Part shown: in pieces, positions 65 to 30,660 of the stretch | How the letters are laid out: each line of letters starts with the position of its first letter | Numbering within the stretch: the first letter of the stretch is position 1 | DNA from: Anisakis pegreffii | Taxonomy: Eukaryota > Nematoda > Chromadorea > Rhabditida > Anisakidae | Direction of reading: 5' to 3' | Length of the DNA: 64,000 nucleotides | Assembly: GCA_035041965.1 (NCBI GenBank) | Contig: JAPYMA010003016.1 | Coordinates: forward strand, 55,959-119,958 | The notes under the pieces: model-generated | Told to the model about the DNA's origin: nothing | Seen by the model: the letters and a program-made list of their open reading frames with translations, nothing else | The model's database searches: none | Made by a program: the position numbers and the translations under genes

Positions 65-103
65 GGTTATGGGCCCAGCACGCTTCCACTGCGCCACGCT
101 GCT
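65..103 (-). pseudogene. 5' half of an initiator tRNA-Met at the array edge
   Basis: Matches tRNA nucleotides 1-39 of the array copies, then stops matching just past the anticodon loop. The 3' half (rest of the anticodon stem, T arm, acceptor strand) is absent from bases 1-64. It marks the left boundary of the array and should not give a functional tRNA. A very long intron is a remote alternative. Confidence 0.85.
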
Positions 104-201
104 GGTGTCATGTTCCTATTGCTCAAAATTCTCGACATGGCTCCATGAAAGAAAAATATTCAAAGAAATTCTCCGATTGATGAACAGAAATCGAAAAAAC
201 A

Positions 202-273
202 TAGCAGCGAGTGGTTTCGATCCACCGACCTCTGGGTTATGGGCCCAGCACGCTTCCACTGCGCCACGCTGCT
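202..273 (-). tRNA. Initiator tRNA-Met (CAT), first complete copy of the array
   Basis: A 72-nt tRNA read on the minus strand. The 7-bp acceptor stem is perfect and begins with A1 paired to U, as in eukaryotic initiators. The anticodon stem carries three consecutive G-C pairs next to the CAT loop, and the T loop reads AUCGAAA instead of the elongator TUCRANU. Both are hallmarks of cytoplasmic initiator tRNA. The discriminator base is A at 202. A-box and B-box promoter sequences lie within the gene, and a T6 terminator follows 2 bases downstream. No intron. Its product starts translation by binding eIF2-GTP. Confidence 0.97.
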
Positions 274-371
274 GGTGTCATGTTCCTATTGCTCAAAATT
301 CTCGACATGGCTCCATGAAAGAAAAATATTCAAAGAAATTCTCCGATTGATGAACAGAAATCGAAAAAACA

Positions 372-3300
372 TAGCAGCGAGTGGTTTCGATCCACCGACC
401 TCTGGGTTATGGGCCCAGCACGCTTCCACTGCGCCACGCTGCTGGTGTCATGTTCCTATTGCTCAAAATTCTCGACATGGCTCCATGAAAGAAAAATATT
501 CAAAGAAATTCTCCGATTGATGAACAGAAATCGAAAAAACATAGCAGCGAGTGGTTTCGATCCACCGACCTCTGGGTTATGGGCCCAGCACGCTTCCACT
601 GCGCCACGCTGCTGGTGTCATGTTCCTATTGCTCAAAATTCTCGACATGGCTCCATGAAAGAAAAATATTCAAAGAAATTCTCCGATTGATGAACAGAAA
701 TCGAAAAAACATAGCAGCGAGTGGTTTCGATCCACCGACCTCTGGGTTATGGGCCCAGCACGCTTCCACTGCGCCACGCTGCTGGTGTCATGTTCCTATT
801 GCTCAAAATTCTCGACATGGCTCCATGAAAGAAAAATATTCAAAGAAATTCTCCGATTGATGAACAGAAATCGAAAAAACATAGCAGCGAGTGGTTTCGA
901 TCCACCGACCTCTGGGTTATGGGCCCAGCACGCTTCCACTGCGCCACGCTGCTGGTGTCATGTTCCTATTGCTCAAAATTCTCGACATGGCTCCATGAAA
1001 GAAAAATATTCAAAGAAATTCTCCGATTGATGAACAGAAATCGAAAAAACATAGCAGCGAGTGGTTTCGATCCACCGACCTCTGGGTTATGGGCCCAGCA
1101 CGCTTCCACTGCGCCACGCTGCTGGTGTCATGTTCCTATTGCTCAAAATTCTCGACATGGCTCCATGAAAGAAAAATATTCAAAGAAATTCTCCGATTGA
1201 TGAACAGAAATCGAAAAAACATAGCAGCGAGTGGTTTCGATCCACCGACCTCTGGGTTATGGGCCCAGCACGCTTCCACTGCGCCACGCTGCTGGTGTCA
1301 TGTTCCTATTGCTCAAAATTCTCGACATGGCTCCATGAAAGAAAAATATTCAAAGAAATTCTCCGATTGATGAACAGAAATCGAAAAAACATAGCAGCGA
1401 GTGGTTTCGATCCACCGACCTCTGGGTTATGGGCCCAGCACGCTTCCACTGCGCCACGCTGCTGGTGTCATGTTCCTATTGCTCAAAATTCTCGACATGG
1501 CTCCATGAAAGAAAAATATTCAAAGAAATTCTCCGATTGATGAACAGAAATCGAAAAAACATAGCAGCGAGTGGTTTCGATCCACCGACCTCTGGGTTAT
1601 GGGCCCAGCACGCTTCCACTGCGCCACGCTGCTGGTGTCATGTTCCTATTGCTCAAAATTCTCGACATGGCTCCATGAAAGAAAAATATTCAAAGAAATT
1701 CTCCGATTGATGAACAGAAATCGAAAAAACATAGCAGCGAGTGGTTTCGATCCACCGACCTCTGGGTTATGGGCCCAGCACGCTTCCACTGCGCCACGCT
1801 GCTGGTGTCATGTTCCTATTGCTCAAAATTCTCGACATGGCTCCATGAAAGAAAAATATTCAAAGAAATTCTCCGATTGATGAACAGAAATCGAAAAAAC
1901 ATAGCAGCGAGTGGTTTCGATCCACCGACCTCTGGGTTATGGGCCCAGCACGCTTCCACTGCGCCACGCTGCTGGTGTCATGTTCCTATTGCTCAAAATT
2001 CTCGACATGGCTCCATGAAAGAAAAATATTCAAAGAAATTCTCCGATTGATGAACAGAAATCGAAAAAACATAGCAGCGAGTGGTTTCGATCCACCGACC
2101 TCTGGGTTATGGGCCCAGCACGCTTCCACTGCGCCACGCTGCTGGTGTCATGTTCCTATTGCTCAAAATTCTCGACATGGCTCCATGAAAGAAAAATATT
2201 CAAAGAAATTCTCCGATTGATGAACAGAAATCGAAAAAACATAGCAGCGAGTGGTTTCGATCCACCGACCTCTGGGTTATGGGCCCAGCACGCTTCCACT
2301 GCGCCACGCTGCTGGTGTCATGTTCCTATTGCTCAAAATTCTCGACATGGCTCCATGAAAGAAAAATATTCAAAGAAATTCTCCGATTGATGAACAGAAA
2401 TCGAAAAAACATAGCAGCGAGTGGTTTCGATCCACCGACCTCTGGGTTATGGGCCCAGCACGCTTCCACTGCGCCACGCTGCTGGTGTCATGTTCCCTAT
2501 TGCTCAAAATTCTCGACATGGCTCCATGAAAGAAAAATATTCAAAGAAATTCTCCGATTGATGAACAGAAATCGAAAAAACATAGCAGCGAGTGGTTTCG
2601 ATCCACCGACCTCTGGGTTATGGGCCCAGCACGCTTCCACTGCGCCACGCTGCTGGTGTCATGTTCCTATTGCTCAAAATTCTCGACATGGCTCCATGAA
2701 AGAAAAATATTCAAAGAAATTCTCCGATTGATGAACAGAAATCGAAAAAACATAGCAGCGAGTGGTTTCGATCCACCGACCTCTGGGTTATGGGCCCAGC
2801 ACGCTTCCACTGCGCCACGCTGCTGGTGTCATGTTCCTATTGCTCAAAATTCTCGACATGGCTCCATGAAAGAAAAATATTCAAAGAAATTCTCCGATTG
2901 ATGAACAGAAATCGAAAAAACATAGCAGCGAGTGGTTTCGATCCACCGACCTCTGGGTTATGGGCCCAGCACGCTTCCACTGCGCCACGCTGCTGGTGTC
3001 ATGTTCCTATTGCTCAAAATTCTCGACATGGCTCCATGAAAGAAAAATATTCAAAGAAATTCTCCGATTGATGAACAGAAATCGAAAAAACATAGCAGCG
3101 AGTGGTTTCGATCCACCGACCTCTGGGTTATGGGCCCAGCACGCTTCCACTGCGCCACGCTGCTGGTGTCATGTTCCTATTGCTCAAAATTCTCGACATG
3201 GCTCCATGAAAGAAAAATATTCAAAGAAATTCTCCGATTGATGAACAGAAATCGAAAAAACATAGCAGCGAGTGGTTTCGATCCACCGACCTCTGGGTTA

Positions 3301-5374
3301 TGGGCCCAGCACGCTTCCACTGCGCCACGCTGCTGGTGTCATGTTCCTATTGCTCAAAATTCTCGACATGGCTCCATGAAAGAAAAATATTCAAAGAAAT
3401 TCTCCGATTGATGAACAGAAATCGAAAAAACATAGCAGCGAGTGGTTTCGATCCACCGACCTCTGGGTTATGGGCCCAGCACGCTTCCACTGCGCCACGC
3501 TGCTGGTGTCATGTTCCTATTGCTCAAAATTCTCGACATGGCTCCATGAAAGAAAAATATTCAAAGAAATTCTCCGATTGATGAACAGAAATCGAAAAAA
3601 CATAGCAGCGAGTGGTTTCGATCCACCGACCTCTGGGTTATGGGCCCAGCACGCTTCCACTGCGCCACGCTGCTGGTGTCATGTTCCTATTGCTCAAAAT
3701 TCTCGACATGGCTCCATGAAAGAAAAATATTCAAAGAAATTCTCCGATTGATGAACAGAAATCGAAAAAACATAGCAGCGAGTGGTTTCGATCCACCGAC
3801 CTCTGGGTTATGGGCCCAGCACGCTTCCACTGCGCCACGCTGCTGGTGTCATGTTCCTATTGCTCAAAATTCTCGACATGGCTCCATGAAAGAAAAATAT
3901 TCAAAGAAATTCTCCGATTGATGAACAGAAATCGAAAAAACATAGCAGCGAGTGGTTTCGATCCACCGACCTCTGGGTTATGGGCCCAGCACGCTTCCAC
4001 TGCGCCACGCTGCTGGTGTCATGTTCCTATTGCTCAAAATTCTCGACATGGCTCCATGAAAGAAAAATATTCAAAGAAATTCTCCGATTGATGAACAGAA
4101 ATCGAAAAAACATAGCAGCGAGTGGTTTCGATCCACCGACCTCTGGGTTATGGGCCCAGCACGCTTCCACTGCGCCACGCTGCTGGTGTCATGTTCCTAT
4201 TGCTCAAAATTCTCGACATGGCTCCATGAAAGAAAAATATTCAAAGAAATTCTCCGATTGATGAACAGAAATCGAAAAAACATAGCAGCGAGTGGTTTCG
4301 ATCCACCGACCTCTGGGTTATGGGCCCAGCACGCTTCCACTGCGCCACGCTGCTGGTGTCATGTTCCTATTGCTCAAAATTCTCGACATGGCTCCATGAA
4401 AGAAAAATATTCAAAGAAATTCTCCGATTGATGAACAGAAATCGAAAAAACATAGCAGCGAGTGGTTTCGATCCACCGACCTCTGGGTTATGGGCCCAGC
4501 ACGCTTCCACTGCGCCACGCTGCTGGTGTCATGTTCCTATTGCTCAAAATTCTCGACATGGCTCCATGAAAGAAAAATATTCAAAGAAATTCTCCGATTG
4601 ATGAACAGAAATCGAAAAAACATAGCAGCGAGTGGTTTCGATCCACCGACCTCTGGGTTATGGGCCCAGCACGCTTCCACTGCGCCACGCTGCTGGTGTC
4701 ATGTTCCTATTGCTCAAAATTCTCGACATGGCTCCATGAAAGAAAAATATTCAAAGAAATTCTCCGATTGATGAACAGAAATCGAAAAAACATAGCAGCG
4801 AGTGGTTTCGATCCACCGACCTCTGGGTTATGGGCCCAGCACGCTTCCACTGCGCCACGCTGCTGGTGTCATGTTCCTATTGCTCAAAATTCTCGACATG
4901 GCTCCATGAAAGAAAAATATTCAAAGAAATTCTCCGATTGATGAACAGAAATCGAAAAAACATAGCAGCGAGTGGTTTCGATCCACCGACCTCTGGGTTA
5001 TGGGCCCAGCACGCTTCCACTGCGCCACGCTGCTGGTGTCATGTTCCTATTGCTCAAAATTCTCGACATGGCTCCATGAAAGAAAAATATTCAAAGAAAT
5101 TCTCCGATTGATGAACAGAAATCGAAAAAACATAGCAGCGAGTGGTTTCGATCCACCGACCTCTGGGTTATGGGCCCAGCACGCTTCCACTGCGCCACGC
5201 TGCTGGTGTCATGTTCCTATTGCTCAAAATTCTCGACATGGCTCCATGAAAGAAAAATATTCAAAGAAATTCTCCGATTGATGAACAGAAATCGAAAAAA
5301 CATAGCAGCGAGTGGTTTCGATCCACCGACCTCTGGGTTATGGGCCCAGCACGCTTCCACTGCGCCACGCTGCT
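372..5374 (-). tRNA. Thirty further initiator tRNA-Met genes, one per repeat unit
   Basis: Each gene is 72 bp and identical to the one at 202-273. The low-coordinate ends are 372, 542, 712, 882, 1052, 1222, 1392, 1562, 1732, 1902, 2072, 2242, 2412, then, after the single-base insertion, 2583, 2753, 2923, 3093, 3263, 3433, 3603, 3773, 3943, 4113, 4283, 4453, 4623, 4793, 4963, 5133 and 5303. Add 71 for the other end. All keep the CAT anticodon, intact stems and the T6 terminator, so none shows pseudogene decay. Whether all are transcribed cannot be seen from sequence. Confidence 0.95.
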
Positions 5375-5474
5375 GGTGTCATGTTCCTATTGCTCAAAAT
5401 TCTCGACATGGCTCCATGAAAGAAAAATATTCAAAGAAATTCTCCGATTGATGAACAGAAATCGAAAAAACATA

Positions 5475-5725
5475 NNNNNNNNNNNNNNNNNNNNNNNNNN
5501 NNNNNNNNNNNNNNNNNNNNNNNNNNNNNNNNNNNNNNNNNNNNNNNNNNNNNNNNNNNNNNNNNNNNNNNNNNNNNNNNNNNNNNNNNNNNNNNNNNNN
5601 NNNNNNNNNNNNNNNNNNNNNNNNNNNNNNNNNNNNNNNNNNNNNNNNNNNNNNNNNNNNNNNNNNNNNNNNNNNNNNNNNNNNNNNNNNNNNNNNNNNN
5701 NNNNNNNNNNNNNNNNNNNNNNNNN
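5475..5725. other. Assembly gap (251 N) at the end of the tRNA array
   Basis: A run of 251 N that begins two bases into the tRNA of the next repeat unit. The array therefore continues into the gap, and its real length is unknown. Confidence 0.99.
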
Positions 5726-21245: not shown

Positions 21246-24200
21246 ATGTGGTGGTGCTTCACACTCTCAGTTGTTGCTCTTCATTCATTAATCGGTAACT
21301 ATCAGAATTCATTGTTTTACTTCGATCCATGTATATCAACTAGTGATAATTGCTGTCAACTGAGATGGATGCCATTCTGGGGATCTGAATTGAGTCACTG
21401 ACAATCATTGCATGGAGACTTGTTTCAATACTAAATCTACTGAGGAAACTGAGAAAATTTATCACAGAGATGTTTTTACCATTCGGATGGTCACTCAAAT
21501 TTCTGCAGCATAATTGATTCCATTGAGCACTTCATGTTCGACTATTCGCTGTTTTCAGGACCTTCAACAACTGTGACAGCAACGACCCGTCGAGGTAATG
21601 CAGTACCAAGATGTGACATTACTCCTTTTATTTGCGTTTGTTCCATTTTTCATTTTCTGTCAACAGAATTACAGAAAATGTTTACGACGGATTCAAAGTG
21701 ATTTTCAGAGTCTTCTCAAGTAGTTGGTTGTGAACAGGAATTCTGTAACTGAATCCTAAGATTCAATTAAAAATTTTCTCACCTAACCAGATTTGCGTTG
21801 TTTTTCAACGGCGGACGCGACGAATTAAGATCACACGGAAATGTTTGATCAAAGAATAGTTGAGTTGAGAAAACTAACTACGAAATCTGTAAAACTATCC
21901 TTCACCTTTCGCTATTTTCAGATCTTACAACAACAATTGCAGCAACTACGACTGGTGGAAGATTCAATCGACCCACCAGTAACATATCCCATTATCCATT
22001 TCAATGTTCCATTAATAATGAAAGTAGTTCTCACAGGATGAAAATCTGAAGATTGATAAGAGCAATTGAAAGCGTTAATAGTTCATTGCAATTGCACTTT
22101 TCAAGGGCGCTCCTCAGGACTATCGACTGTGTGCACAAGACTGCTTCTGGAGCATGCGCACGGAAATGTGTTTTGAGTTCAAATAGTTCACAAAAATGAA
22201 ATAGGGATGTGTTTATCACGCAGCTGGTGCAAACTTCAATAGATATGTTCGACAGCTTTGACATACTAAGATTCTATCAACGACACCGAGAGCTGGCGAA
22301 GGAATTTGTTTCCAGCACTGCATTTTTTGTTGTGCAAACCTTTTAATGTTGGAATAACGCTTAGAAACTTTTTGAAAGTTGCCGTTGCCCGAAGCACATT
22401 ACTTACTAAGTTCATCATTCTCATATGATTGATATTCTATGATGCCATAGATATTCCTGCAAAATCTATCGCTTTACAGAAAAGTGATGTTGTTGAGTGA
22501 CTATTCACTTCCTGAATCGCAATAAAACGAGAATATTTTGTTGATGACTATGTCAGTTCGTTCATAAATTCATAAATCCACTGTTCACAAGTGCTCAAGA
22601 TAACGCACTATGCATATGTGATAAATCCCTTCATTTACGCTCCATTTCTCACTTTATAGCCGTGATACCCCTTCCCTTGAGACAAGAACCTGCATGATAA
22701 CAGCAGAATTTAGATTTGAATTGTTGGGAATTTTCCAGATCGATACTGTCTTCGGTTGATGCAAGAAACGTGTAAGAGTGGATGTCACTCGTCTGTCGCA
22801 TCAGACCCGTGTATGCCCAATAACCAATGTCAACAGATTTACAGAAGCTGTTTACGACGGATTCAAGGTGATTTTCAGTGTCTTTTCAAGTAGTTGGTAG
22901 TGAACAGGAATTCTGCAACTGGATCTTAAGATTCAATTAAAAATTATTTCATCTAACGGGATTGGCGTTGTTTTTCAACGCTGGACGTCACGAATTAAGA
23001 TCACACAGAAATGTTTGATCAAAGAATAGTTGAGTTGAGAAAACTAACTACGAAATCTGTAAAACTATCCTTCACCTTTCGCTATTTTCAGATCCTACAA
23101 CAACAATTGCAGCAACTATGACTGGTGGAAGATTCAATCGACCCACCAGTAACATATCCCATTATCCATTTCAATGTTCCATTAATAATGAAAGTAGTTC
23201 TCACTTCTGAATATTAATAGGAGCAATTGAAAGCGTTCATAGTTCATTGCAATCACACTTTTCAAAGGTGTTCCTCAGAACAATCGACTGTGTGCACAAG
23301 ACTGCTTCTGGAGCAAGCGCACGGAAATGTGTTTTGAGTTCAAATAGTTCACAAATGAAATAGGGATGTGTTTATCACGCAGCTGATGCAAACTTCAATA
23401 GATATGTTCGACAGCTTTGACATACTAATAGTAAGATTCTATCAACAACACCGAGAGCTGGCGAAGGAATTTGTTTCCGGAATTCGTTTCTGAACTTTCC
23501 AGGTCGATACTGTCTTCGGTTGATGCAAGAAACGTGTAAGAGTGGATGTCACTCGTCTGTCGCATCAGACCCGTGTATACCCAAAAACCAATGTCAACAG
23601 ATTTACAGAAGCTGTTTACGACGGATTCAAGGTGATTTTCAGTGTCTTTTCAAGTAGTTGGTAGTGAACAGGAATTCTGCAACTGGATCTTAAGATTCAA
23701 TTAAAAATTATTTCATCTAACCGGATTGGCGTTGTTTTTCAACGCTGGACGTCACGAATTAAGATCACACAGAAATGTTTGATCAAAGAATAGTTGAGTT
23801 GAGAAAACTAACCACGAGATCCGTAAAACTATCCTTCACCTTTCGCTATTTTCAGATCCTACAACAACAATTGCAGATCCTACAACAACAATTGCAGATC
23901 CTACAACAACAATTGCAGATCCTACAACAACAATTGTAGATCCTACAACAACAATTGCAGATCCTACAACAACAATTGCAGCAACTATGACTGGTAGAAG
24001 ATACACTCGACCCACCAGTAACATATTCCATCATCCATTTCAATGTTCCATTAATAATGAAAGTAGTTCTCACTTCTGAATATTAATAGGAGCAATTGAA
24101 AGCGTTCATAGTTCATTGCAATCACACTTTTCAAAGGCGTTCCTCAGAACAATCGACTGTGTGCACAAGACTGCTTCTGGAGCATGCGCACGGAAATGTG

Positions 24201-25359: not shown

Positions 25360-28300
25360 TAGCTATACCTCCCAAACTAAGCGAGATCGCCAGACAAAAT
25401 ATATATTTTTCTGAATGCAGAGATTCTGCTTGATCGACTGGTGTGAAGAAATCGATATTTTACTGGTCAAAGCTGAGAGTACGGTAGGTTTGAATGTGCC
25501 AACCCCTATAGCATCAGAAAAATAGCTATACCACCTCGCAGAGGCTGAATTTTCCTATGAGACTTTCATTTGTAGAAACCGGAGATTCTGCTTAATCGAA
25601 TGATATACAAACATCAATATGTTTCCTGGCAAACTTGAGAAGACGGTAGGCTTCAATGTATCAANNNNNNNNNNNNNNNNNNNNNNNNNNNNNNNNNNNN
25701 NNNNNNNNNNNNNNNNNNNNNNNNNNNNNNNNNNNNNNNNNNNNNNNNNNNNNNNNNNNNNNNNTCGCAGAGGCTAAATTTTCCGATGGGATTTTCATGT
25801 TTTTAAAGCAGAGATTCTGCTTAATCGAACGATGTACAAACATTAATATGTTTCCCGGCAAACTTGAGAAGACGGTAGGCTTCAATGTATCAAACCCATA
25901 TTTCTATAGTAATGTATAATATGCATTGATCTATAGTGATCAAACGCATATCAATGAGCACCTGAGCGCTAGTTGAGATAGCTTCAATAAAATAGCTATA
26001 CCTCCTCAAATAAGCGAAACCGCCCGACAAAATATATATTTTTCTGAATGCAAAGATCCTGCTTGATCGAATTATGTGAAGAAACTGATATGTTACCGAT
26101 CAAAGCTGAGAGTACGACAGGTTTGAATGTGCCAACCCCTATAGCATCAGATAAATAGCTATATCTCCTCGCAGAGGCTAAATTTTCCGATGGGATTTTC
26201 ATGTTTTTAAAGCAGAGATTCTGCTCGATCGAACGATGTACAAACATTAATATGTTTCCCGGCAAACTTGAGAAGACGGTAGGCTTCAATGTATCAAACC
26301 CATATTTCTATAGTAATGTATAATATGCATTGATCTATAGTGATCAAACGCATATCAATGAGCACCTGAGCGCTAGTTGAGATAGCTTCAATAAAATAGC
26401 TATACCTCCTCAAATAAGCGAAACCGCCCGACAAAATATATATTTTTCTGAATGCAAAGATCCTGCTTGATCGAATTATGTGAAGAAACTGATATGTTAC
26501 CGATCAAAGCTGAGAGTACGACAGGTTTGAATGTGCCAACCCCTATAGCATCAGATAAATAGCTATATCTCCTCGCAGAGGCTAAATTTTCCGATGGGAT
26601 TTTCATGTTTTTAAAGCAGAGATTCTGCTCGATCGAACGATGTACAAACATTAATATGTTTCCCGGCAAACTTGAGAAGACGGTAGGCTTCAATGTATCA
26701 AACCCATATTTCTATAGTAATGTATAATATGCATTGATCTATAGTGATCAAACGCATATCAATGAGCACCTGAGCGCTAGTTGAGATAGCTTCAATAAAA
26801 TAGCTATACCTCCTCAAATAAGCGAAACCGCCCGACAAAATATATATTTTTCTGAATGCAAAGATCCTGCTTGATCGAATTATGTGAAGAAACTGATATG
26901 TTACCGATCAAAGCTGAGAGTACGACAGGTTTGAATGTGCCAACCCCTATAGCATCAGATAAATAGCTATATCTCCTCGCAGAGGCTAAATTTTCCGATG
27001 GGATTTTCATGTTTTTAAAGCAGAGATTCTGCTCGATCGAACGATGTACAAACATTAATATGTTTCCCGGCAAACTTGAGAAGACGGTAGGCTTCAATGT
27101 ATCAAACCCATATTTCTATAGTAATGTATAATATGCATTGATCTATAGTGATCAAACGCATATCAATGAGCACCTGAGCGCTAGTTGAGATAGCTTCAAT
27201 AAAATAGCTATACCTCCTCAAATAAGCGAAACCGCCCGACAAAATATATATTTTTCTGAATGCAAAGATCCTGCTTGATCGAATTATGTGAAGAAACTGA
27301 TATGTTACCGATCAAAGCTGAGAGTACGACAGGTTTGAATGTGCCAACCCCTATAGCATCAGATAAATAGCTATATCTCCTCGCAGAGGCTAAATTTTCC
27401 GATGGGATTTTCATGTTTTTAAAGCAGAGATTCTGCTCGATCGAACGATGTACAAACATTAATATGTTTCCCGGCAAACTTGAGAAGACGGTAGGCTTCA
27501 ATGTATCAAACCCATATTTCTATAGTAATGTATAATATGCATTGATCTATAGTGATCAAACGCATATCAATGAGCACCTGAGCGCTAGTTGAGATAGCTT
27601 CAATAAAATAGCTATACCTCCTCAAATAAGCGAAACCGCCCGACAAAATATATATTTTTCTGAATGCAAAGATCCTGCTTGATCGAATTATGTGAAGAAA
27701 CTGATATGTTACCGATCAAAGCTGAGAGTACGACAGGTTTGAATGTGCCAACCCCTATAGCATCAGATAAATAGCTATATCTCCTCGCAGAGGCTAAATT
27801 TTCCGATGGGATTTTCATGTTTTTAAAGCAGAGATTCTGCTCGATCGAACGATGTACAAACATTAATATGTTTCCCGGCAAACTTGAGAAGACGGTAGGC
27901 TTCAATGTATCAAACCCATATTTCTATAGTAATGTATAATATGCATTGATCTATAGTGATCAAACGCATATCAATGAGCACCTGAGCGCTAGTTGAGATA
28001 GCTTCAATAAAATAGCTATACCTCCTCAAATAAGCGAAACCGCCCGACAAAATATATATTTTTCTGAATGCAAAGATCCTGCTTGATCGAATTATGTGAA
28101 GAAACTGATATGTTACCGATCAAAGCTGAGAGTACGACAGGTTTGAATGTGCCAACCCCTATAGCATCAGATAAATAGCTATATCTCCTCGCAGAGGCTA
28201 AATTTTCCGATGGGATTTTCATGTTTTTAAAGCAGAGATTCTGCTCGATCGAACGATGTACAAACATTAATATGTTTCCCGGCAAACTTGAGAAGACGGT

Positions 28301-30660
28301 AGGCTTCAATGTATCAAACCCATATTTCTATAGTAATGTATAATATGCATTGATCTATAGTGATCAAACGCATATCAATGAGCACCTGAGCGCTAGTTGA
28401 GATAGCTTCAATAAAATAGCTATACCTCCTCAAATAAGCGAAACCGCCCGACAAAATATATATTTTTCTGAATGCAAAGATCCTGCTTGATCGAATTATG
28501 TGAAGAAACTGATATGTTACCGATCAAAGCTGAGAGTACGACAGGTTTGAATGTGCCAACCCCTATAGCATCAGATAAATAGCTATATCTCCTCGCAGAG
28601 GCTAAATTTTCCGATGGGATTTTCATGTTTTTAAAGCAGAGATTCTGCTCGATCGAACGATGTACAAACATTAATATGTTTCCCGGCAAACTTGAGAAGA
28701 CGGTAGGCTTCAATGTATCAAACCCATATTTCTATAGTAATGTATAATATGCATTGATCTATAGTGATCAAACGCATATCAATGAGCACCTGAGCGCTAG
28801 TTGAGATAGCTTCAATAAAATAGCTATACCTCCTCAAATAAGCGAAACCGCCCGACAAAATATATATTTTTCTGAATGCAAAGATCCTGCTTGATCGAAT
28901 TATGTGAAGAAACTGATATGTTACCGATCAAAGCTGAGAGTACGACAGGTTTGAATGTGCCAACCCCTATAGCATCAGATAAATAGCTATATCTCCTCGC
29001 AGAGGCTAAATTTTCCGATGGGATTTTCATGTTTTTAAAGCAGAGATTCTGCTCGATCGAACGATGTACAAACATTAATATGTTTCCCGGCAAACTTGAG
29101 AAGACGGTAGGCTTCAATGTATCAAACCCATATTTCTATAGTAATGTATAATATGCATTGATCTATAGTGATCAAACGCATATCAATGAGCACCTGAGCG
29201 CTAGTTGAGATAGCTTCAATAAAATAGCTATACCTCCTCAAATAAGCGAAACCGCCCGACAAAATATATATTTTTCTGAATGCAAAGATCCTGCTTGATC
29301 GAATTATGTGAAGAAACTGATATGTTACCGATCAAAGCTGAGAGTACGACAGGTTTGAATGTGCCAACCCCTATAGCATCAGATAAATAGCTATATCTCC
29401 TCGCAGAGGCTAAATTTTCCGATGGGATTTTCATGTTTTTAAAGCAGAGATTCTGCTCGATCGAACGATGTACAAACATTAATATGTTTCCCGGCAAACT
29501 TGAGAAGACGGTAGGCTTCAATGTATCAAACCCATATTTCTATAGTAATGTATAATATGCATTGATCTATAGTGATCAAACGCATATCAATGAGCACCTG
29601 AGCGCTAGTTGAGATAGCTTCAATAAAATAGCTATACCTCCTCAAATAAGCGAAACCGCCCGACAAAATATATATTTTTCTGAATGCAAAGATCCTGCTT
29701 GATCGAATTATGTGAAGAAACTGATATGTTACCGATCAAAGCTGAGAGTACGACAGGTTTGAATGTGCCAACCCCTATAGCATCAGATAAATAGCTATAT
29801 CTCCTCGCAGAGGCTAAATTTTCCGATGGGATTTTCATGTTTTTAAAGCAGAGATTCTGCTCGATCGAACGATGTACAAACATTAATATGTTTCCCGGCA
29901 AACTTGAGAAGACGGTAGGCTTCAATGTATCAAACCCATATTTCTATAGTAATGTATAATATGCATTGATCTATAGTGATCAAACGCATATCAATGAGCA
30001 CCTGAGCGCTAGTTGAGATAGCTTCAATAAAATAGCTATACCTCCTCAAATAAGCGAAACCGCCCGACAAAATATATATTTTTCTGAATGCAAAGATCCT
30101 GCTTGATCGAATTATGTGAAGAAACTGATATGTTACCGATCAAAGCTGAGAGTACGACAGGTTTGAATGTGCCAACCCCTATAGCATCAGATAAATAGCT
30201 ATATCTCCTCGCAGAGGCTAAATTTTCCGATGGGATTTTCATGTTTTTAAAGCAGAGATTCTGCTCGATCGAACGATGTACAAACATTAATATGTTTCCC
30301 GGCAAACTTGAGAAGACGGTAGGCTTCAATGTATCAAACCCATATTTCTATAGTAATGTATAATATGCATTGATCTATAATGATCAAATGCATATCAATG
30401 AGCACCTGAGCGCTAGTTGAGATAGCTTTATTAAAATAGCTATACCTACTCAACTAAGCGAAATCGCCCGACAGAATATATTTTTTTCTGAATGCAGAGA
30501 TTCTGCTTGATCGATTGGTGTGAAGAAATTGATATGTTACTGGTCAAAGCTGAAAGTACGGTAGGTTTGAATGTACCAACCCTTAGAGCATCAGAAAAAT
30601 AGCTAATTCTCCTCACATAGGCAGAATTTTCCGGTGAGTTTTCTATTTTAGAAAGAAGAG
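25360..30660 (-). repeat. 404-bp satellite-like tandem array with diverged edge copies
   Basis: Eleven near-identical units with exact 404-bp spacing occupy about 25765-30428. More diverged copies flank them at 25360-25664 and 30429-30660. Each unit is itself two half-units of about 160 bp related at roughly two-thirds identity (shared TAGCTATA...CTCCTC, ATTCTGCT.GATCGAA, TATGTT.CC and GG.TT.AATGT blocks), plus a linker of about 90 bp. The linker contains an inverted repeat, ATATGCATTGATC / GATCAAACGCATAT, around TATAGT. On the minus strand both half-units are open in the same frame, giving a 97-codon frame per unit. No start context, domain or splice evidence supports a gene, so it is treated as a higher-order satellite. 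Confidence 0.9.
25665..25764. other. Assembly gap (100 N) within the 404-bp array
   Basis: Exactly 100 N, a common placeholder for a gap of unknown length. It sits at the change from diverged to near-identical units, so the copy number is uncertain. Confidence 0.99.

Follow-up and report, generated by a model that had tools for sequence, protein, structure and literature searches.

A stretch of 64,000 nucleotides from the Anisakis pegreffii genome (contig C1689, GenBank JAPYMA010003016.1, positions 55959–119958; hereafter the window) contains near its start a tandem array of 31 identical, intact genes for the initiator transfer RNA (tRNA), tRNA-Met(CAT). In the most probable reading, to which we assign a probability of roughly 70%, this is a functional initiator tRNA array and one of a genome-wide set of tandem arrays, each devoted to a single amino acid, read by RNA polymerase III (Pol III) and homogenised. 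The array is more interesting as a trait of the genome than as an oddity of the initiator.

Structure of the initiator tRNA array

ARAGORN identified 31 tRNA-Met(CAT) genes in the window, all on the minus strand between positions 202 and 5374. Each of the 31 copies scored 57.4 bits against the Rfam family RF00005 (gathering score 29), with positions 1–71 of 71 matched, and the tRNA sequences are identical in 31 of 31. Tandem Repeats Finder reported a period of 170 bp over positions 65–5474, with 31.8 copies and 99% matches. When the units were cut at the tRNA, 30 of the 31 were identical at 170 bp, while the remaining one is 171 bp long, with a 1-base insertion in its spacer, adjoining the copy at 2412. 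A terminator of six T residues (T6) lies 2 nt past the tRNA gene and recurs in every unit. ARAGORN, Rfam and the comparison of units thus agree with the original prediction of 31 identical, complete initiator genes in one orientation, each with its own T6, apart from the one spacer that is 1 bp longer; the single-isotype array organised like ribosomal DNA that it described is real. At its right edge, where two bases of another copy can still be read, the array is cut by a gap of 251 N; therefore, 31 is a lower bound, and the true number of copies is higher or equal. The copy at the other edge (65–201) lacks the T arm and the 3' acceptor strand.

The tRNA forms a full cloverleaf with a CAU anticodon, and the Rfam alignment printed for one copy contains no non-standard pair. 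The features present include A1:U72 (A1:T72 in the gene), three G:C pairs at 29–31/39–41, A54, A60, and A73, and the T loop reads ATCGAAA. We take A1:U72, the three G:C pairs of the anticodon stem, A54/A60, and A73 to be hallmarks of the eukaryotic cytosolic initiator, and, judged by them, the array members are structurally eukaryotic cytosolic initiator tRNA-Met. The A-box and B-box motifs in the gene were assigned from motif forms that we presume to hold here; since these internal boxes and the terminators are present, gene-by-gene transcription by Pol III appears probable.

In a genome search with the 170-bp unit, the 98-bp spacer had no match outside the array. Rfam at E values up to 1 found nothing in positions 1–700 of the window beyond the three tRNAs there, the initiator unit having no other Rfam match. 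Plus-strand open reading frames of 123 aa across the array were rejected as repeat frames rather than genes, and the intact, tandem state of all 31 copies does not match a tRNA-derived short interspersed nuclear element (SINE) or a pseudogene satellite, which would show degenerate tRNAs with a tail in dispersed insertions.

Tandem arrays and dispersed tRNA genes across the assembly

The genome searched comprised 122.66 Mb in 1740 contigs. A genome search with RF00005 scored 63 of 7927 first-look candidates, the initiator array not being among them, and B-box patterns were used instead. A B-box pattern followed by T4 gave 1650 matches across the whole genome versus 22 for the reversed control, a figure inflated by long T runs that were counted more than once. 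Eight partitioned B-box patterns gave 1071 matches versus 5 in the controls, the former including repeated T-run matches (Thr copies on C801 were mostly matched twice) and a SINE-like family, and the GGTTCGAGTCC form of the pattern gave 223 versus 8. Array counts on all contigs are lower bounds, and the B-box patterns miss tRNAs with other B boxes, that of the initiator included.

Arrays of at least eight tRNA copies were found on 12 contigs, including the initiator's own C1689 (Table 1). The 11 others cover Arg, Glu, Tyr, Thr, Ala, and Ser, and in eight of them the copy number exceeds 31, those on C28, C234, and C794 falling below it. In the arrays examined, each unit carries a single tRNA gene, and each array is devoted to one amino acid. 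Dispersed tRNA genes exist beside the arrays, as seen with pattern matches and ARAGORN among the matches listed. For ten of the 12 arrays, the distance to a contig end or gap is about 220 bp at most, a count that excludes the far end of C1733, and the last 814 bp of C234 carry no tRNA; the arrays appear to mark where the assembly breaks.

Outside the array, the 170-bp initiator unit matches six places in the genome, in the tRNA part only, with two matches extending one base into the flank. The matches on C1725, C163, and C1133 are exact over the tRNA, while those on C482, C1182, and C118 are degenerate or partial; ARAGORN called tRNA-Met at the three exact places and on C482, and made no call on C1182 and C118. 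Each of the three exact genes sits in flanking sequence of its own, with at least T4 in a run no more than a few nucleotides away. The array is therefore not the sole source of initiator genes, which answers in the affirmative the question, raised with the original prediction, of whether dispersed initiator genes remain.

Several related observations were made in the course of the same searches. The periods of the arrays are about 152–215 bp, near the nucleosome repeat length. Lys-TTT genes occur in direct pairs 171–172 bp apart on C936, C1023, and C535, and some pairs face each other. Tandem units of 277–279 bp with a B-box-like motif, in which ARAGORN calls no tRNA, lie at C86:81250–82250 and C188:55100–55900, and B-box-like motifs at a spacing of about 510–513 bp were seen at C199:77835–80425 and C230:74462–76545. 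A dispersed element also carries a tRNA-like B-box stretch (e.g., C15:87262, C16:85620, and C38:24117), and many of the best 100 of its 109 matches end in GTTCGCGGAGGAAAGTTTT or a close variant; a conserved stretch in three aligned copies suggests that it is a tRNA-derived SINE.

Table 1. Features of the initiator tRNA array in the window and tRNA arrays on other contigs.
Feature	Location	Strand	Basis or remarks
Truncated terminal copy: full spacer and first 39 nt of tRNA	65..201	-	C1689:56023-56159; query 1-137 of 170, 100%
Array of 31 identical intact initiator tRNA-Met(CAT) genes, 72 nt each, 170-bp period	202..5374	-	ARAGORN, Rfam, unit comparison
Representative tRNA gene: A1:U72, anticodon stem CTGGG/CCCAG, A54 and A60, A73	202..273	-	Sequence, Rfam alignment
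A box of representative copy (internal Pol III promoter, predicted)	256..266	-	From sequence; motif form presumed
B box of representative copy, initiator form GGATCGAAACC (predicted)	213..223	-	From sequence; motif form presumed
T6 Pol III terminator of representative copy (A run on plus strand)	194..199	-	Sequence
98-bp spacer of representative unit	274..371	-	Genome search, spacer comparison
Sole variant spacer, 99 bp, 1-base insertion	2484..2582	-	Unit comparison
First two bases of a further copy, cut by gap	5473..5474	-	Sequence
Assembly gap, 251 N, interrupting the array	5475..5725	.	Sequence
Arg-TCG array	C309		49 called, 48 without one lying 2 kb off; one called CCG
Arg-ACG array	C44		72 called, one with unresolved anticodon
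Glu-CTC array	C41		48 called
Glu-TTC array	C80		At least 43 B-box matches; isotype from 0.9-kb sample
Tyr-GTA array, 13-nt intron	C28		8 called, one as His
Tyr-GTA array, 13-nt intron	C234		At least 13 in a row; isotype and intron from sample
Tyr-GTA array, 13-nt intron	C890		At least 53 copies; isotype and intron from sample
Thr array	C794		At least 9 matches
Thr array	C801		At least 37 distinct places; in 5.6-kb sample 28 of 29 called Thr, one Tyr
Ala array	C1634		At least 78 copies; in 5.8-kb sample 35 of 35 called Ala
Ser array	C1733		35 called in 5.9-kb sample
Smaller groups	C1704, C233, C717, C61		Gly-TCC on C1704 and C233 (3 each); Gly-GCC on C717 and Gly-CCC on C61 (2 each)

Variation of gene bodies and spacers

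Diverged tandem copies within one array were used to compare the nucleotide diversity (pi) of the tRNA with that of the spacer. In the Arg-TCG array, 2 of 73 tRNA columns are variable versus 66 of 144 spacer columns (Fisher p = 1.2e-12, with columns treated as independent), and pi is 0.006 and 0.115, respectively; of the 48 copies located by motif, 42 entered the comparison, after removal of the isolated copy and, from the array itself, of its first four copies and its last. Similar contrasts between tRNA and spacer pi were obtained for Ser (0.0095 and 0.115, 34 units) and for Thr on C801 (0.012 and 0.180 in 27 units; 0.023 and 0.227 in a smaller sample of 4) and C794 (0.011 and 0.224, 5 units). 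The values were 0.006 and 0.067 (7 units) for Tyr on C28, 0 and 0.043 (3 units) for Tyr on C890, 0.014 and 0.052 (4 units) for Glu-TTC, 0 and 0.0052 (46 units) for Glu-CTC, 0 and 0.0005 (71 units) for Arg-ACG, and 0.033 and 0.062 (34 units; 0.021 and 0.041 in a smaller sample of 4) for Ala. Where units differ, the tRNA body is thus less variable than the spacer, from about 2-fold (Ala) to 20-fold (Thr). Edge copies diverge in the Arg-TCG array, while the edge copy of the initiator array is truncated and not diverged.

Units that belong to the same array are not independent of each other, and gene conversion inside the tRNA bodies might also reduce variation there. In the Ser array, variation is common at a single tRNA column, that of the first anticodon base (18 C and 16 A); CGA and AGA types alternate over a run of 24 copies, and four further columns vary, each with just one or two deviating units. 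For Thr on C801, it is again the first anticodon base that varies (9 A, 14 T, and 4 C), along with a column close to the variable loop in which 3 of 27 units differ. Three arrays hold wobble variants, the anticodon mixes being CGA/AGA for Ser, AGT/CGT/TGT for Thr, and TGC/CGC for Ala. Since conversion would have evened the wobble base too, it is insufficient alone to account for the low tRNA variation, and a tRNA body of low variation with a varying wobble base fits genes kept by selection.

Interpretation and alternative explanations

Several observations weigh against the interpretation of the initiator array as a functional member of a genome-wide set. The array is without any substitution, and constraint is therefore not measurable on it. 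In the Ala array, variation of the tRNA is lower than that of the spacer by a factor of only about two, and 16 tRNA columns vary, of which the wobble base is the most even and some lie at or past the gene end; for selection, this array provides weaker evidence. Three dispersed initiator genes might suffice alone. In addition, folding the initiator tRNA by itself gave a minimum-energy structure other than a cloverleaf (z = -1.08), a result to which little weight was given, since unmodified tRNAs often misfold in silico.

One could alternatively propose a satellite that happens to hold a tRNA gene and was spread by neutral unequal exchange, most copies being silent or unneeded. The near-perfect uniformity of the units, the array periods, which lie in a range common for satellites, the existence of three exact dispersed genes, and the occurrence in the same window of a 404-bp satellite without Rfam match would all suit such an origin. 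We nevertheless consider it unlikely, as all 31 bodies are intact, and the diverged sister arrays have tRNA bodies that vary less than their spacers, with Ser and Thr variation centred on the wobble base, which is unexpected from drift; the same grounds speak against the satellite or pseudogene option entertained with the original prediction. A chromatin role, in which dense Pol III/TFIIIC sites would serve as a boundary, anchor, or replication-fork barrier and tRNA output would be secondary, has a precedent in human DNA, where a 7.3-kb tRNA repeat is put forward as a boundary element in the available text of PMC4041453. It does not alone explain a varying wobble base in a near-constant body, and a BLAST comparison of one spacer each from nine arrays (Ser left out; plus strand, E up to 0.01) found no shared motif, which makes such a role improbable.

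The original prediction also saw in the array a special solution to the supply of initiator. The at least 31 arrayed and three dispersed initiator genes could be regarded as an initiator-specific dosage adaptation, but copy numbers above 31 occur on eight of the 11 other array contigs, which are for elongator tRNAs (Arg, Glu, Tyr, Thr, Ala, and Ser); amplification of the initiator only, for start capacity, is for this reason very improbable, and, with three exact dispersed genes remaining as well, this part of the prediction did not hold. Finally, the assembler might have inflated a short or single-copy locus, a scenario prompted by the identity of the initiator units and by the position of 10 of 12 arrays at contig ends or gaps. 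A variant initiator unit is kept at one place, while the 31 distinct units among 42 in the Arg-TCG array and the alternation of CGA and AGA in the Ser array would be hard to produce by mis-assembly, and we regard this scenario as the least probable one.

Under the favoured interpretation of a functional array within a genome-wide set, each 170-bp unit would be a self-contained Pol III gene with an A box, a B box, and its own T6. The unit may have been multiplied by unequal exchange or slippage, with repeated turnover keeping the units uniform. Provided that the assembly consensus is correct, the near-complete identity of the initiator units suggests that this array grew recently or is strongly homogenised. 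Selection for a working tRNA would remove broken bodies but leave the spacers to drift; within the gene bodies of the Ser and Thr arrays, variation would be mainly confined to the wobble base. The arrays would then supply tRNA dosage in general, not the initiator in particular. A bolder hypothesis, on which we find the odds to be even, is that much of the tRNA gene set of this nematode has moved to one-amino-acid arrays, in which selection holds the body and frees the wobble base, providing a tunable supply of isoacceptors; within this hypothesis, the initiator array would be the invariant member, because the initiator anticodon cannot vary.

Neighbouring features of the window

The gene after the gap, at about 8.0–12.2 kb of the window, is ABCB7: the best PDB matches of one exon are ABCB7, and a partial protein pieced together from exons, compared with the best 120 of 7993 matches, is closest to the proteins of Parascaris univalens (83%) and Toxocara canis (82%), with further entries at 81% and below. 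By this protein, the host appears to be an ascarid-like nematode. The 404-bp satellite mentioned above occupies positions 25765–30633 directly after a gap of 100 N, with 12.1 copies at 99% and no Rfam match at the gathering level. A 21-bp repeat is present six times at 23853–23981, and one open frame of it reads DPTTTIA.

Comparison with known tRNA arrays

Nuclear tRNA arrays in nematodes were the subject of no paper found in the open-licence literature, as judged by titles and abstract openings. In a survey of 74 genomes (Bermudez-Santana et al., PMC2888827), parallel clusters for the same amino acid are described, like those found here, and in Nematostella and teleosts clusters reach fifty members or more; the accessible part of that survey names no nematode with large clusters and gives Caenorhabditis for tail-to-tail pairs and synteny. 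The SYY cluster of Arabidopsis likewise consists of tandem tRNA genes, but it is a single locus of a plant, decodes Ser and Tyr, and, according to the available text, is silenced in most tissues and used in some cells (PMC12308677). In Drosophila tRNA clusters, anticodon shifts are reported, one of four being an isoacceptor shift, in the part of that study at hand (PMC7919458); therefore, a change of the wobble base as such is not new.

The closest parallels are found in Entamoeba and Hydractinia. As excerpted, the study of Entamoeba (Tawari et al., PMC2652664) describes many-copy uniform tandem tRNA units across one genome, as observed here, and its [R-TCT] and [H-GTG] arrays contain one tRNA by name, as in the nematode arrays. 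Entamoeba units hold up to five tRNA genes, some with 5S RNA, and in two species the genes are separated by complex short tandem repeats, according to the same excerpts (PMC2652664). The nematode arrays, which belong to a different lineage, differ in that, among those examined, every unit holds a single gene and every array serves a single amino acid, three of them including wobble variants; Entamoeba-type units with multiple tRNAs or 5S RNA were absent from the arrays examined. Hydractinia has an animal genome with evenly spaced arrays of near-identical non-coding RNA genes, as here, and tRNAs for all 20 amino acids are arrayed; its arrays differ in a base-pair length, which is about 76–143 bp here, and no mention of wobble mixing within arrays was found in the portion of the paper available (PMC11067881). 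The nematode initiator array shares with both systems the head-to-tail arrangement of near-identical units of gene and spacer, in an organisation common to several tRNA species.

Tandem tRNA arrays have been called unusual outside Entamoeba (in the sections seen of PMC11067881), and the function of the Entamoeba arrays has been called obscure (in those of PMC2652664). With a nematode whose arrays cover the initiator and at least six amino acids, this question would reach a group in which good laboratory relatives are available, and the nearly wobble-only variation in two of these arrays would offer a natural test of selection on arrayed tRNAs and of the origin of isoacceptors.

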